A stretch of DNA of 36,574 nucleotides from an uncultured Tepidamorphus sp. (GTDB lineage: Bacteria; Pseudomonadota; Alphaproteobacteria; Rhizobiales; Tepidamorphaceae): contig CAJQNW010000067.1 in the NCBI GenBank assembly GCA_905479765.1, positions 1 through 36,574 on the forward strand. The letters are read 5' to 3'. Of this stretch, positions 1-36,198 are shown in pieces. Under the pieces are notes generated by a model. It saw only the letters and a program-made list of their open reading frames with translations. It was not told where the DNA came from and made no database searches. The translations under genes were made by a program, and so were the position numbers. The stretch's first letter is position 1, and the number at the start of each line of letters is the position of its first letter.

Positions 1-356
1 CCGGTTCCGAGGGCGTGACACAGCGCCGCCTGGTCGACGAGCCCGCCGCGCGCGGTGTTCACCAGGATGGCGTGCGGCTGCATCTCGGCGAATGCCGCGG
101 CGTCGAAGAGATGCTCGGTTTCCTCGGTCAGCGGCGCGTGGATCGAGACGAAGTCGGAGCGCGCGAGCAGGTCGTCGAAACTGACGTGGGCGCCGGGGAA
201 GTCGGGGACCGCACGGTGGCCGCAGTAGAGGACGTTCATCTGGAACGCAGCGGCGCGGGTGGCGACGGCGCCGGTAACCGGATTGACGCGCTCAAAGGTC
301 GCGGCGTCGCTGGACGCGACGCTTTCGTTCCTGATGAGGAGTGCTGCGTCGAGCAT
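1..356 (-). CDS. Partial chimeric ORF: aldehyde dehydrogenase-like N-terminus joined in frame to D-2-hydroxyacid dehydrogenase (continues beyond left edge)
   Basis: Manual minus-strand translation from ATG at 356: MLDAALLIRNESVASSDAATFERVNPVTGAVATRAAAFQMNVLYCGHRAVPDFPGAHVSFDDLLARSDFVSIHAPLTEETEHLFDAAAFAEMQPHAILVNTARGGLVDQAAL...; no stop to the window edge. First ~37 aa resemble ALDH N-termini, remainder is D-2-hydroxyacid dehydrogenase. Absent from the ORF track. Confidence 0.7.
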   Translation of the reverse strand, partial: MLDAALLIRNESVASSDAATFERVNPVTGAVATRAAAFQMNVLYCGHRAVPDFPGAHVSFDDLLARSDFVSIHAPLTEETEHLFDAAAFAEMQPHAILVNTARGGLVDQAALCHALGT

Positions 357-614
357 CTCCCGCCGTTCTCCCGTAAAGCCTGCATCCGGTTCGCGATCTC
401 TTGGCGGTCGCGTGGTTGCCGGAAGCGGTGTTTCCTCTGTGTTCGCGGCGGCTTCTTGTTTGTTCGGGCTTGTGCCGGTGTCGCCTTGATCTCAACCATA
501 GAAGGCACCGGCAACTTTAAAATGCAATTATGTCGGTATTTATTGTAATTATATGGTCAATTCCGCCGGACAAATCGCCAAGGCACGGTCTCAAACTTGC
601 AGAATGCCACGCCC

Positions 615-1532
615 ATGACCCAACAGCCGGTCGCGCCGCATGCTCCGGCGTCTCGCGTGCCGATCAAGGTGGAGCGGATCGAAAGCGGCCTGCAGGCACG
701 CCACTGGTCGTTCAACCGGGACGCGGCGGTAGCGGCGCGCCAGATCATCCTGCTGGTCGACGGGGACGGCGAGGCGGAAACCGATCCCGAGACCTATCCG
801 TTCTCCGGGCCGGCGATCCTGTGGCTCGGCGACAGCCGGCCCGGCCGGCTGAAGGCCGGGGCCGGCGCCACCGGTTTTCTGGCGAGCATCGGCAACGCGA
901 TCCTGGTCGATGCGATCGGCGACGAGCCGGAGTCGGTCGGCCTGCGCTACATGGTGGACCGCAATTTCCAGCTGCCGCTGGCCGGCCAAATACCGCTGCG
1001 GTCCGACATCGTGCTCGCCTTCGAGGCGATCCTGCGCGAATTGCAACAGCCGCAAAGCGGCTCGCCGATGCTGATTGCCGCATATCTCAGGATCATTCTC
1101 GTCTCGATGCTGCGGATTTCCGGCGTCGAGGAACTGGCAATGCGGAGCGGCGGCGAGAAATCCCGTGTGCTGCAGCGCTTCCGGCAACTGGTCGAGATGA
1201 ACTTCCGCGACCACTGGACGGTTACCCGCTACGCCGAGACGCTCGGCATTTCACGCGACCGGCTGCACGCGGTGTGCACGGCAGCGCTCGGGAAAGGGCC
1301 GAAGGCGCTGATCGCCGAACGGCTGGCGCGCGAGGCAGGCCTCAGGCTGGAACGCTCGACGCTGACGATCGAGCAGCTCAGCCATTCACTGGGTTTCCGC
1401 GACCCGGCACATTTTTCCAACTTCTTCAAGCGCACAACGGGCATGACGCCTGGCCGGTATCGCCGGATGATGGTGATGTTCGATCCCGCCACGATTGCCG
1501 GATCGCCGGCTACTTTCGCCGACTGGCCGTAA
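615..1532 (+). CDS. AraC-family transcriptional regulator
   Basis: C-terminal AraC HTH (YAETLGISRDRLHAVC...LGFRDPAHFSNFFKRTTGMTPGRYRR). ATG at 615; ORF opens at TTG 597. Confidence 0.88.
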   Translation: MTQQPVAPHAPASRVPIKVERIESGLQARHWSFNRDAAVAARQIILLVDGDGEAETDPETYPFSGPAILWLGDSRPGRLKAGAGATGFLASIGNAILVDAIGDEPESVGLRYMVDRNFQLPLAGQIPLRSDIVLAFEAILRELQQPQSGSPMLIAAYLRIILVSMLRISGVEELAMRSGGEKSRVLQRFRQLVEMNFRDHWTVTRYAETLGISRDRLHAVCTAALGKGPKALIAERLAREAGLRLERSTLTIEQLSHSLGFRDPAHFSNFFKRTTGMTPGRYRRMMVMFDPATIAGSPATFADWP

Positions 1533-4057: not shown

Positions 4058-4498
4058 CTACCGCGTTCCGCCGCGCGGCTGCCGTTTCCGCCGGTGATAG
4101 GTGAGGGCCTCGGCGATCATGGTCCTGAGTTCCGGGCGCTTCAGGTCCTCGGCGGATCGGAAGTGGACGCTGCGATTGCCGCCGTAGGTGTAGTGCTCGA
4201 AGCGGTCCTTCCAGTCTTCGACGAGGCTCGTCTGGCAGTTCACGAAGAGCGCGAACGCAGCCTCGTCCGTCTTGTCGCCGTCGATGCGGATCGTGGTTCC
4301 GGATTTCGACCGTGTCGTGAGATAGCTCGGCTGGCCCCATTTCAGCGTCTCTTCAAGCGGGCCTGCGTCTTCCTCTTCGGCGACGTCCAAAATCAGGTCT
4401 CTCAGCCGCGTGAGGCCTTCGCGCACGTCCGGGGCGTACCGGCCGAATACCGGCTGGATTGCGGGCCCCGGCTTGCTGCCCTTCGATGCGATCGTCAT
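4058..4498 (-). CDS. DUF1801-like (YdhG-like) protein
   Basis: LKWGQPSYLT...GTTIRIDGDKTDEAAFALFVNCQTSLVEDW...NRSVHF pattern typical of DUF1801. Confidence 0.65.
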   Translation of the reverse strand: MTIASKGSKPGPAIQPVFGRYAPDVREGLTRLRDLILDVAEEEDAGPLEETLKWGQPSYLTTRSKSGTTIRIDGDKTDEAAFALFVNCQTSLVEDWKDRFEHYTYGGNRSVHFRSAEDLKRPELRTMIAEALTYHRRKRQPRGGTR

Positions 4499-4507
4499 GG
4501 CCTGACC

Positions 4508-5704
4508 CTAGGCCGCCCCTGCGGGCTTGGTGATCTTCACGCGCGCTTTCAGGTCGGTGCGGCAGAAGGCGTGCAGGAAGCAGGTCTGCTCTGACATATC
4601 CAGCGCCGTCCGGCAGAAGTCGTCGTTCTCGCGCGTGTCGAGATAGACATGCGTCTCGACGGGATCGGCCTCGCCGGGCCTTCCGGTGCCACCCGATGCG
4701 CCGCCCAGCGAGAAGTGGGTATCCTGGACGATGCGATAGTCGTCCAGTTCCCTTTTCGCGATCTTCGCGTAGCGGCCGAACTGCGTCATGAAGCAGAAGC
4801 CTATGCCAGCCGAGATATAGCTTGCCGCATCGGGCGCACGTCCCTGGCCGCCGGCCTCGGGACCTTCCTCGCTCAAATACCGGAAGATCGAGCCGTGCGG
4901 ATTGTAGAGGTGCTGTTCGATCTCTTTCACGCCGTCGGGCCGCAGCGTGCAGATGCCGCGCACATGGAGGATGCGGTCCTGCTCGTCCCTGAGGCTGTCG
5001 CCGGCGAGCGTCACGGATTCCTGCGTCTTCGGCGTCATGGCACCGCGCCGGATCAGTCCCGACCAGTCGCCGTCGGCGGGCGTCGCCTTGTCGAAAGTGT
5101 CGCCTGGATCGATGAGCGCATTGGCGGCGAGGCGCCGGGCGTTGCCGGTGGCGATCTCGGCACCATTGTGGGACAGCGTGAACAGGCTGTCGCAGACGCC
5201 GCGCATCAGGCCGTTCAGCGGCGAGGCGGCGACCGCGTCGTAGACCAGCGCGCGCAGCGTCTCGGTATCGGCGGGCGAGGCGATCTCGGCTTCCAGCTCC
5301 ACGTCGCGGGCGCCGCCCGTCATGGTGCCCTTCAGCGCCGAGCCCTTCATCGAATAGTAGTTGTCCTGGATCAGGCGGATGTCGTCGATGGCGATGCCGC
5401 GCGTCTTCGCCAGTGCCAGGATCTCGTTCATGTAGGCCGAGACCATGCCGGTGGTCAGGAACGACAGCGGGCAGGGCGCCTCGTCGAGACCGTCGAGATA
5501 GGCGCCTTCGTCGCTCGAAAGCCGCCACATCGCACCGGTCAGGCCGGAGACGACGAGGGCTTCCTTCTGCATGACGGAGAGCGAACGGACGGCGAGACGG
5601 ACCGGCTGGCCCTTGCGATCGGCGGGCGGGGTTAAACCGGTTTCTTCGGGATTGGCGACCTTGAAAAACAGAGGTTTGCCAGACTCTATCAGTGGATTGC
5701 TCAT
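4508..5704 (-). CDS. Tandem OsmC-like protein (about 398 aa)
   Basis: Two OsmC-like halves: PCPLSFLTTGMVSAYMNEIL... and ISAGIGFCFMTQFGRYAK...CRTALDMSEQTCFLHAFCRTDL. Confidence 0.65.
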   Translation of the reverse strand: MSNPLIESGKPLFFKVANPEETGLTPPADRKGQPVRLAVRSLSVMQKEALVVSGLTGAMWRLSSDEGAYLDGLDEAPCPLSFLTTGMVSAYMNEILALAKTRGIAIDDIRLIQDNYYSMKGSALKGTMTGGARDVELEAEIASPADTETLRALVYDAVAASPLNGLMRGVCDSLFTLSHNGAEIATGNARRLAANALIDPGDTFDKATPADGDWSGLIRRGAMTPKTQESVTLAGDSLRDEQDRILHVRGICTLRPDGVKEIEQHLYNPHGSIFRYLSEEGPEAGGQGRAPDAASYISAGIGFCFMTQFGRYAKIAKRELDDYRIVQDTHFSLGGASGGTGRPGEADPVETHVYLDTRENDDFCRTALDMSEQTCFLHAFCRTDLKARVKITKPAGAA

Positions 5705-5746
5705 GTACGGTCTCGTTCGTCGGGTCGAAGCCGAAGCCTCGACGGA

Positions 5747-7504
5747 TCAGTTCAGTAGCCCCGCCTTGCGCACCCCTTCGATGCGGACGTCGAAATCGGC
5801 CTGGTTGCGGAACGGCAGGATAGACTCTCGGCTCTCCATGTCGAAGCCGGGATCGACGGATTTGACCTTGGCCCACGCGGCTTTTGCTTCGTCGATGCGG
5901 CCGAGGTGGCCGTAGCAGGACGCGAGCAGGATGTGGGCCGTCTTCGAGTCCGGATCGCGCTGAAGCCTCTTATTGAGTACTGCAACCGCCTCCTCGAACC
6001 GCCCGAGCGAGATGTGTGCCTCGGCGAGGAAATGCAGCAGGATGTCCGGATAATGCGGGTCGAGCCGCATCGAGGTCTCGATGTTCTCGATCGCGGCGGC
6101 CGGTTCGCCGTTGAATATCTGCGGGTGGGCCAAGGCGATATGGCCCTGCGCGGAGCCCGGCGTCAGCTCCAGGCAACGCGCGGCGGCGGCCAGCGCCCGG
6201 TCCAGGTCGTGGCTCCACAGGGAGGCGATGGTCAACGCGAAATAGCCTTCGGGCTCCTCGGCATCCATCTCAACTGCGCGTTCGGCGATCATGAGCCCCT
6301 CAGTGAGCGAGCCCTGGGGATCGTCGCTCCAACCGTTGACGTAGTCGACCGCGTGGGTGAAAGCGATCAGAGCGTGCGCCGCTGCGTAGTCCGGTTCGAT
6401 GGCGACCGCGGAGGCGAGCAGCCGACGCGCATCGATGTTTCCCGACTTCTTGTGCTGCCAAGCCTGCTCGCGGCCGCGCAGGTACAGATTGTAGGCGTCG
6501 AGGTTGATCGTGCGCTTGTGGGCCAGACGTTGCTTCTCGTCCGCGGTCAGCCTGACCTTGAGCGCGGAGACGATCTCCCGGGTCAGCTCATCCTGGACGG
6601 CGAAAATGTCGGTGAGGTCACGGTCGAACCGGTCGGCCCAGACGTGGCCGCCATTGGTCGCGTCGATGAGCTGTGCGGTGACGCGCACGCGGTTGCCCGC
6701 CTTGCGCACGCTGCCCTCCAGCACGTAGCGCACACCCAGTTCACGCGCGACCTCGGGGATCGAGACCGCGTCCGCGTTCTTGTAGACGAAGGTGGAGTTG
6801 CGGGCGATAACGTGCAGCTCGGACACCTTCGACAGATCGGTGATGATATCCTCGCTGATGCCGTCGGAGAAATATTCCTGCTCCGCGTCGCCGCTCATGT
6901 TGTCGAAGGCGAGGACGGCGACGGAGGGCTTTTCCGGTAGCGCGGGGTGTTGCGCGGGAGCGGCCGGCTCACCGGATTCCATCAGGATGCAAAACACCTC
7001 GATCGGGCGGGCGATGTTCTTGACCGACTGTTCGCCGCGCGTCTCGATCTCGATCGGGACCTTGTCGCGCACCTGATCGAAGGCGGCGCGCGAGATATAG
7101 ACACCGCCCGGGTCGGCCAGCCCTTCGATGCGCGACGCCACGTTGACGCCGTCGCCGTAGATGTCGTCGCCGTCGACGATGATGTCCCCGACATTGATGC
7201 CGATCCGGAACTGGATGAGACTGTCGTCGGGAACGCCATCGTTGTGGTCGCGCACGGCCTTCTGGATGTCGATCGCGCAACTGACCGCATCGACGGCGCT
7301 GGCGAACTCCACGAGCACGCCGTCGCCCATGAGTTTGACGATGCGCCCGGCGAAGGCGGCGACCTTGGGATTGACGATGTCTTGCAGCATCCCCTTCAAC
7401 CGCGCCAGCGTTCCGGCTTCGTCGCCCTCCATCAGACGCGAATAGCCGACGACATCGGCGGCCAGGACCGCGGCTAGCCTTCGTTGAACTCGTTGCTCAG
7501 CCAC
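5747..7504 (-). CDS. Class III adenylate/guanylate cyclase with C-terminal TPR region
   Basis: RRLAAVLAADVVGYSRLMEGDEAGT...LMGDGVLVEF...FRIGINVGDIIVDGDDIYGDGVNVASRIE, then TolB-like segment (PSVAVLAFDNMSGD) and TPR-like repeats. GTG start at 7504 preceded by GAGGGG RBS. Confidence 0.88.
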   Translation of the reverse strand: MAEQRVQRRLAAVLAADVVGYSRLMEGDEAGTLARLKGMLQDIVNPKVAAFAGRIVKLMGDGVLVEFASAVDAVSCAIDIQKAVRDHNDGVPDDSLIQFRIGINVGDIIVDGDDIYGDGVNVASRIEGLADPGGVYISRAAFDQVRDKVPIEIETRGEQSVKNIARPIEVFCILMESGEPAAPAQHPALPEKPSVAVLAFDNMSGDAEQEYFSDGISEDIITDLSKVSELHVIARNSTFVYKNADAVSIPEVARELGVRYVLEGSVRKAGNRVRVTAQLIDATNGGHVWADRFDRDLTDIFAVQDELTREIVSALKVRLTADEKQRLAHKRTINLDAYNLYLRGREQAWQHKKSGNIDARRLLASAVAIEPDYAAAHALIAFTHAVDYVNGWSDDPQGSLTEGLMIAERAVEMDAEEPEGYFALTIASLWSHDLDRALAAAARCLELTPGSAQGHIALAHPQIFNGEPAAAIENIETSMRLDPHYPDILLHFLAEAHISLGRFEEAVAVLNKRLQRDPDSKTAHILLASCYGHLGRIDEAKAAWAKVKSVDPGFDMESRESILPFRNQADFDVRIEGVRKAGLLN

Positions 7505-20142: not shown

Positions 20143-20202
20143 GCCAAACTGGCCGCGCATATCCGCGGCATCGCCTGCGTGGTTGCTGTAACCGCTGTCT
20201 GG

Positions 20203-20290
20203 GCCCTGGATCAAGTCCAGGGCACGGCGTTGAAAATGTCGCAAGGCCGTGCCATTCAGAAAACCTTGTGTCCCGGACTTGATCCGGGAC
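20203..20290. repeat. Pair of inverted palindromic repeats sharing core GGATCAAGTCC, separated by an 8-bp inverted repeat
   Basis: GCCCTGGATCAAGTCCAGGGC (20203-20223) and GTCCCGGACTTGATCCGGGAC (20270-20290); GGCACGGC (20221-20228)/GCCGTGCC (20246-20253) between them. Confidence 0.88.
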
Positions 20291-20324
20291 CCATGCAGCC
20301 GTTCAGCCTGGGACGCCTTCGCGG

Positions 20325-35005: not shown

Positions 35006-35620
35006 CTACTCCGCTAGCTGGCGTAGATCCTCTCCATCTAGCCTCCCCGCGACCAACCCTTCAATGACGTTTCGCAAACGCTGCGCTGATTGTCGGGGCT
35101 CACGGTCGTTGACGATCTCGACCAGCGTTACACCGTCGGGAACCGTAACAGGAACAGGCGTCAGGCGTTCGTCGATATCCGCGCCGCTCTCGCGTCCCCG
35201 GCCTTCGATCCGGGCGCGCAGGATATCGGGCGGCGCGGTCACGTGAACCACGGTGACGTGACGATATCGCTGTGCCGCCGCGCCAACGGCCTTCCGGGAT
35301 AGATTGGCGACGACGACCGATCCCGCCGCGATCCACTCGTCGACGATCAGCGGAACCGCGTAGCCGAGCCCGTGGGCGCGCCAATGCAGGGCGACGCCAT
35401 CGCTATCGACCAGCCGATCGAAAGAGGCTTCGTCAAGCGTGTCGTGATCTTCCGACTTCGTATCGGCCGTGCGGGTGATCAGTCGGCGCGGAAACCGGAT
35501 GCGGGGGTCGGTTGTGACGGCTTCGGCGGCAAGCCTTATCAGCGTGTCCTTGCCGGCGCCGGACGGGCCAACGACTGGCACGAAGGTGCCCGGTCCAATT
35601 CGTGCGCGGTCGCCATTCAC
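35006..35620 (-). CDS. phnN: Ribose 1,5-bisphosphate phosphokinase PhnN
   Basis: FVPVVGPSGAGKDTLIRLAAEA, RFPRRLITRTAD, SRKAVGAAAQRYRHVTVVHVTAPPDILRARI. Confidence 0.88.
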   Translation of the reverse strand: MNGDRARIGPGTFVPVVGPSGAGKDTLIRLAAEAVTTDPRIRFPRRLITRTADTKSEDHDTLDEASFDRLVDSDGVALHWRAHGLGYAVPLIVDEWIAAGSVVVANLSRKAVGAAAQRYRHVTVVHVTAPPDILRARIEGRGRESGADIDERLTPVPVTVPDGVTLVEIVNDREPRQSAQRLRNVIEGLVAGRLDGEDLRQLAE

Positions 35621-36198
35621 GCCGGGCTCTCGGACAGCGCGGCGTCCGCGTCGACGCGGAAATCGTCGAGAGCCGGCGTCCGCGCCTCGGTGTCCTTGGC
35701 CAGATCGTCCCAGACGCGCAGCCGCACCGCGTCGCGGGCAAACGGCGCGGCGATGAACTCGGCTGCTTCGGCTACGGAGAAGCGGCCGCCCTGCACCTTC
35801 AGCGAGGCGACGGAGGCCGGCGAGAGGTCGGCGAAGTAGTCGGTATTGGTTGCGCAGAGATAGCGTTTGGCGGCGACATGCATACGGATCGGCTCGGTCA
35901 CGGCCGGCCCGAACCAGCGCGCTAGGTGAGCGGCAGCGACTTCCTCGTGCAGCATGTCTATCCCCCGTTCGGCGGCGCCATCGTCGCCAGCGCCGTCATC
36001 GACGACGAGATGACCATAGTCGTGCAGAAGCGCCGCCGTCACGAGACTTGCCGTCGCACCGGCGCGGCGCGCCATCGTCGCGCACTGCAGCGCGTGCTGG
36101 AGCTGCGTCACCGCCTCGCCGCCATACATCTCATGCCCGCGACCGGCAAGATTGTCGAAGATCTCGTCGACGATACGGCTTGCGCGCCTGCCGTTCAT
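35617..36198 (-). CDS. HD-domain phosphonate oxygenase-like protein (PhnZ/TmpB-type)
   Basis: GHEMYGGEAVTQLQHALQCATMARRAGATASLVTAALLHDYGHLV; overlaps phnM and phnN by ATGA. Confidence 0.78.
   Translation of the reverse strand: MNGRRASRIVDEIFDNLAGRGHEMYGGEAVTQLQHALQCATMARRAGATASLVTAALLHDYGHLVVDDGAGDDGAAERGIDMLHEEVAAAHLARWFGPAVTEPIRMHVAAKRYLCATNTDYFADLSPASVASLKVQGGRFSVAEAAEFIAAPFARDAVRLRVWDDLAKDTEARTPALDDFRVDADAALSESPA

Follow-up and report, generated by a model that had tools for sequence, protein, structure and literature searches.

A hybrid reading frame of aldehyde dehydrogenase and D-2-hydroxyacid dehydrogenase sequence in an uncultured Tepidamorphus sp. is most likely a contig-end artefact

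Chimeric contig ends occur in draft and metagenome assemblies, and the hybrid open reading frame analyzed here has in common with them (i) a foreign tail roughly the length of a short read or insert; (ii) a position at the end of a contig; and (iii) a join at a short similarity. When compared from sequence, not from reads, no feature was observed in which the two differ. The proteins to which the hybrid is related belong to two enzyme families. With the aldehyde dehydrogenase (ALDH) family (PF00171), and specifically with the orthologue from the congeneric genome G001, it shares the first 37 residues, the divergently oriented AraC-family gene and synteny as far as base 247 of the window (the whole stretch of DNA analyzed, 36,574 nucleotides), whereas the contig lacks everything past ALDH residue 37, including the NAD-binding and catalytic parts. 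With the glyoxylate/hydroxypyruvate reductase and phosphoglycerate dehydrogenase group (PF02826), residues 38–118 can be aligned and the SDFVSIHAPLTEET and VNTARGGLVD motifs are conserved; unlike members of this group, however, the hybrid has neither the GxGxxG loop nor the N-terminal substrate domain half, and its C-terminus is cut by the contig end.

The hybrid reading frame lies on the minus strand (356..3), starts at an ATG at position 356 and runs off the contig without a stop codon, encoding 118 residues (Table 1). Its translation begins with MLDAALLIRNESVASSDAATFERVNPVTGAVATRAAAFQMNVLYCGHR and continues with VNTARGGLVDQAALCHALGT. As the initial annotation had recognized, it starts as an ALDH, with 95% identity over 37 residues to the start of the 483-residue ALDH of G001, and then switches to D-2-hydroxyacid dehydrogenase sequence: residues 30–116 match PF02826 (E=6e-28, 97.8 bits, cut-off 25.1) at profile positions 50–141 of 178, which, judged by this profile comparison, is far beyond chance. 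The likeness to ALDH is confined to the first 37 residues, and the whole hybrid (P0001) does not match PF00171; all catalytic ALDH parts are missing.

Table 1. Features at the left end of the window (strand and supporting evidence)
Feature	Position	Strand	Evidence
ALDH (PF00171) N-terminal 37 codons, ATG 356	246..356	-	95% identity over 37 aa to G001 ALDH
Junction zone, codons 30-37 (AVATRAAA), shared codons ACC CGC GCC GC	246..269	-	PF02826 match starts at residue 30; codon comparison
Partial D-2-hydroxyacid dehydrogenase NAD-binding domain tail	1..245	-	PF02826 50-141; single copy in draft; absent from sister locus
Divergent ALDH/AraC intergenic region	357..614	.	Window 247-576 aligns with L106 7076-7401, 73% nt
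AraC-family regulator (HTH_18), divergent from ALDH	615..1529	+	PF12833 E=6.9e-19; 81% aa identity to G001 orthologue

The two homologies overlap at residues 30–37 (about window 246–269), where both families are alike, and the suggestion of a join of the microhomology type made in the initial annotation is borne out to this extent. Compared codon by codon with the G001 ALDH gene, the window agrees through codon 35 and diverges within codon 36, while likeness to the dehydrogenase begins at codon 30. The short GC-rich similarity at the join is ACCCGCGCCGC, which encodes TRAA, and the two parts meet in frame and at matching motifs of both families. Alignment with full-length dehydrogenases places the join just after the GxGRIG motif, within AVA(R/K)RAxxF; the NAD loop and the entire N-terminal half of the dehydrogenase are missing, so that the absence of the GxGxxG segment noted earlier was read correctly.

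A search of the organism's own genome (G000) established that the window is a complete contig (G000:C67:1-36574, 36574 bases) and that its base 1 is an assembly end. The draft comprises 4,997,711 bases in 521 contigs and is 85.3% complete with 3.6% contamination. The dehydrogenase-like part thus makes up the last ~245 bases of contig C67, the join being ~245 bases from the contig end, and the contig stops at hybrid residue 118. The same contig encodes, at 35620-36198 (-), a PhnZ-like HD-domain oxygenase of phosphonate degradation (TIGR03276, 223.1 bits, above the cut-off of 214.6).

The intact form of the locus was found in relatives, a comparison that the initial annotation had recommended. 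On contig C15 of G001 (locus L106), the AraC gene (+) is followed on the opposite strand by a 483-aa ALDH gene (7185..5734), whose product is covered from end to end by a PF00171 match (E=8e-153) and for which the best NCBIfam models are of the HpaE, SSADH and betaine-aldehyde types, all below cut-off. After it come a substrate-binding protein gene (5679..4480, a binding protein by NCBIfam), two permease-like and two ATPase-like reading frames, and the start of a second ALDH gene; the permease and ATPase roles (branched-chain-amino-acid-type ABC transporter) were read from the translations, not from a family search. Similarity between the window and L106 spans from window position 1531 down to 247 and ends abruptly at 247. 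The ALDH start and AraC neighbourhood of the window are orthologous to the G001 locus with its intact ALDH gene. The congener G002 likewise encodes a full-length ALDH (60% identical), its gene facing away from one of AraC type and having a binding-protein gene on its far side; the family member G007 also has a full-length ALDH (62%).

For the AraC-family regulator of the window, the closest NCBIfam model is HpaA (TIGR02297, 123.8 bits, far under the cut-off of 274.65). HpaA is a regulator of 4-hydroxyphenylacetate catabolism, and the combination of a regulator resembling HpaA, at a score well below cut-off, with an HpaE-like ALDH hints at an aromatic-aldehyde pathway.

When the organism's own draft was searched with the sister locus, the transporter operon was found on another contig, C399, at 82–89% nucleotide identity. 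Base 1 of C399 corresponds to L106 base 5313, which falls in binding-protein residue 123 (the two proteins are 91% identical at the amino acid level), and the second ALDH gene follows on contig C189. The true continuation of the operon is thus present elsewhere in the draft, with the locus split across C189, C399 and C67. The ends of C399 and C67 face each other across ~1.76 kb of sister sequence (1,763 bases, L106 5314-7075), the counterpart of which was detected in no G000 contig in the draft search; this absent segment would hold ALDH residues 38–483 and the start of the binding protein. The remainder of the ALDH gene was also sought among the 21 other contigs with ALDH matches, all of which proved to carry paralogues (no more than 44% identity).

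Both in G001 (C15, L106) and in G000 (C189, C399), a different ALDH gene flanks the transporter operon on each side, the first next to the divergent AraC gene and the second downstream. A dispersed repeat is located at or close to the end of C189 and the distal end of C399; it is an element of ~95 bases with self-complementary parts that also occurs at 20200-20294 of the window and 537-630 of L106, with about 20 or more matches in the genome. This element is probably a palindromic repeat of intergenic regions at which the assembly breaks.

These results bear directly on the deletion scar offered in the initial annotation, in which a deletion mediated by microhomology would have brought the start of the ALDH gene into contact with a dehydrogenase gene downstream. 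Such an event would account for the short shared string at the join and for both parts lying on the same strand and in the same frame. It fails, however, because the ~7 kb inspected downstream of ALDH in the sister operon contains no dehydrogenase and because C399 still carries the genes that such an event should have eliminated or moved, and that contig starts inside the binding-protein gene rather than at a dehydrogenase; we regard a deletion as highly improbable.

Next to be considered is the source of the tail. The G000 draft contains no second copy of it, the weak matches reaching at most 55 bases at 82%, and neither the head nor the C-terminal remainder of the dehydrogenase gene was found there: apart from the tail, the draft has six strong PF02826 matches, all complete or nearly so (98–100% of the profile, reading frames of 329–543 aa). 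The best relatives of the tail elsewhere are scattered across many phyla at 54–62% amino acid identity, and no donor was identified among the genome-search matches; among 61 related genomes, no congeneric dehydrogenase counterpart exceeds about 50% identity over its length. A within-draft repeat was considered as the cause of the join, and the tail was found to have no exact string of at least 14 bases in common with the remainder of C67; a repeat-induced fork inside the G000 bin is unlikely.

A foreign origin was likewise sought in the composition of the tail. Its codon usage (score rank 230 of 385 host segments) and its GC3 (0.91, rank 323 of 385) are no different from what other genes on the contig show, and composition gives no sign of foreign origin; codon use and GC3 are not diagnostic in a GC-rich genome, and these values neither support nor exclude another organism. 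The tail could stem from a gene that this organism itself possesses but that is missing from the assembly.

A contig-typical composition also fits a genuine strain-level rearrangement or insertion, in which a segment carrying a dehydrogenase gene would have been inserted or recombined into the ALDH gene and broken both genes, the hybrid being a dead remnant. With 15% of the genome missing, the partner of such an event could be unassembled, and a contig can break at a true structural variant between strains. Yet the breakpoint would have to fall, by coincidence, only ~245 bases from the end of a contig, C399 retains the downstream operon at 82–91% conservation, and the dehydrogenase has, as noted, no congeneric counterpart beyond about 50% identity over its length. 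We consider a rearrangement of this kind unlikely, and similarly unlikely a strain-specific event that inserted a dehydrogenase gene in the ALDH operon and thereby created a hybrid gene, in frame and under AraC control.

Homologues with the same hybrid arrangement, the occurrence of which in many genomes the initial annotation had held to speak against its proposal, were sought widely. Matches covering the ALDH leader together with the dehydrogenase part were absent from 61 related genomes and from 385 genomes of the class and 398 of the order (the latter two sets queried with the dehydrogenase part). Nor did any appear when contigs from 84,980 species were scanned with patterns from both halves, a scan that is not exhaustive, since it finds only candidates that share short exact peptide patterns. 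A literature search yielded nothing directly useful. The frame is open through the join, as would be expected if the ALDH promoter drove a functional, neofunctionalised hybrid, another possibility raised initially. Such a protein would nevertheless have a Rossmann fold devoid of the first strands and of the dinucleotide loop, and neither enzyme has its catalytic domain on the contig, each being either missing or beyond the contig end. Because the dinucleotide loop is absent and no relative with the same arrangement was found in the genome searches, a functional hybrid is very unlikely, its probability being close to negligible.

We infer from this context, rather than from reads, that the hybrid reading frame is an artefact of the contig end and not a gene fusion (probability roughly 0.87), the tail at 1..245 being most likely a chimeric contig-end extension. 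This reading is preferred because the tail stands at a contig end, synteny is lost at base 247, the displaced operon lies on C399 and no other trace of the tail gene was found. Against it, a random chimera is expected to join in frame only one time in three, and the codon usage and GC content of the tail are typical of the contig. Under the artefact reading, the ATG at 356 would start an ordinary full-length ALDH gene in the real genome, with AraC divergent and the branched-chain-amino-acid-type ABC transporter operon after it, as in the sister; the last ~245 bases of C67 would belong to a D-2-hydroxyacid dehydrogenase gene at another place in this genome or to one from a different organism present in the sample, presumably joined at ACCCGCGCCGC by a chimeric read or fragment or by a false assembly step. 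The join may have arisen as a library chimera, as an amplification chimera or through an assembler error. Of the three readings in the initial annotation, it is therefore the assembly join, extended to include a library chimera, that survives, while the deletion scar and the neofunctionalised protein do not; and since no other reading agrees with the genomic context, the claim that the ALDH promoter drives the hybrid is left unsupported.

The hybrid accordingly adds no biology. Taken at face value, it could be deposited in databases as a fusion protein that does not exist. It provides a worked example of how fusions at contig ends, even when in frame and matched at motifs, can be assembly or library chimeras, and of how a syntenic sister genome, together with a search of the organism's own draft for the displaced operon, can expose such chimeras without reads.
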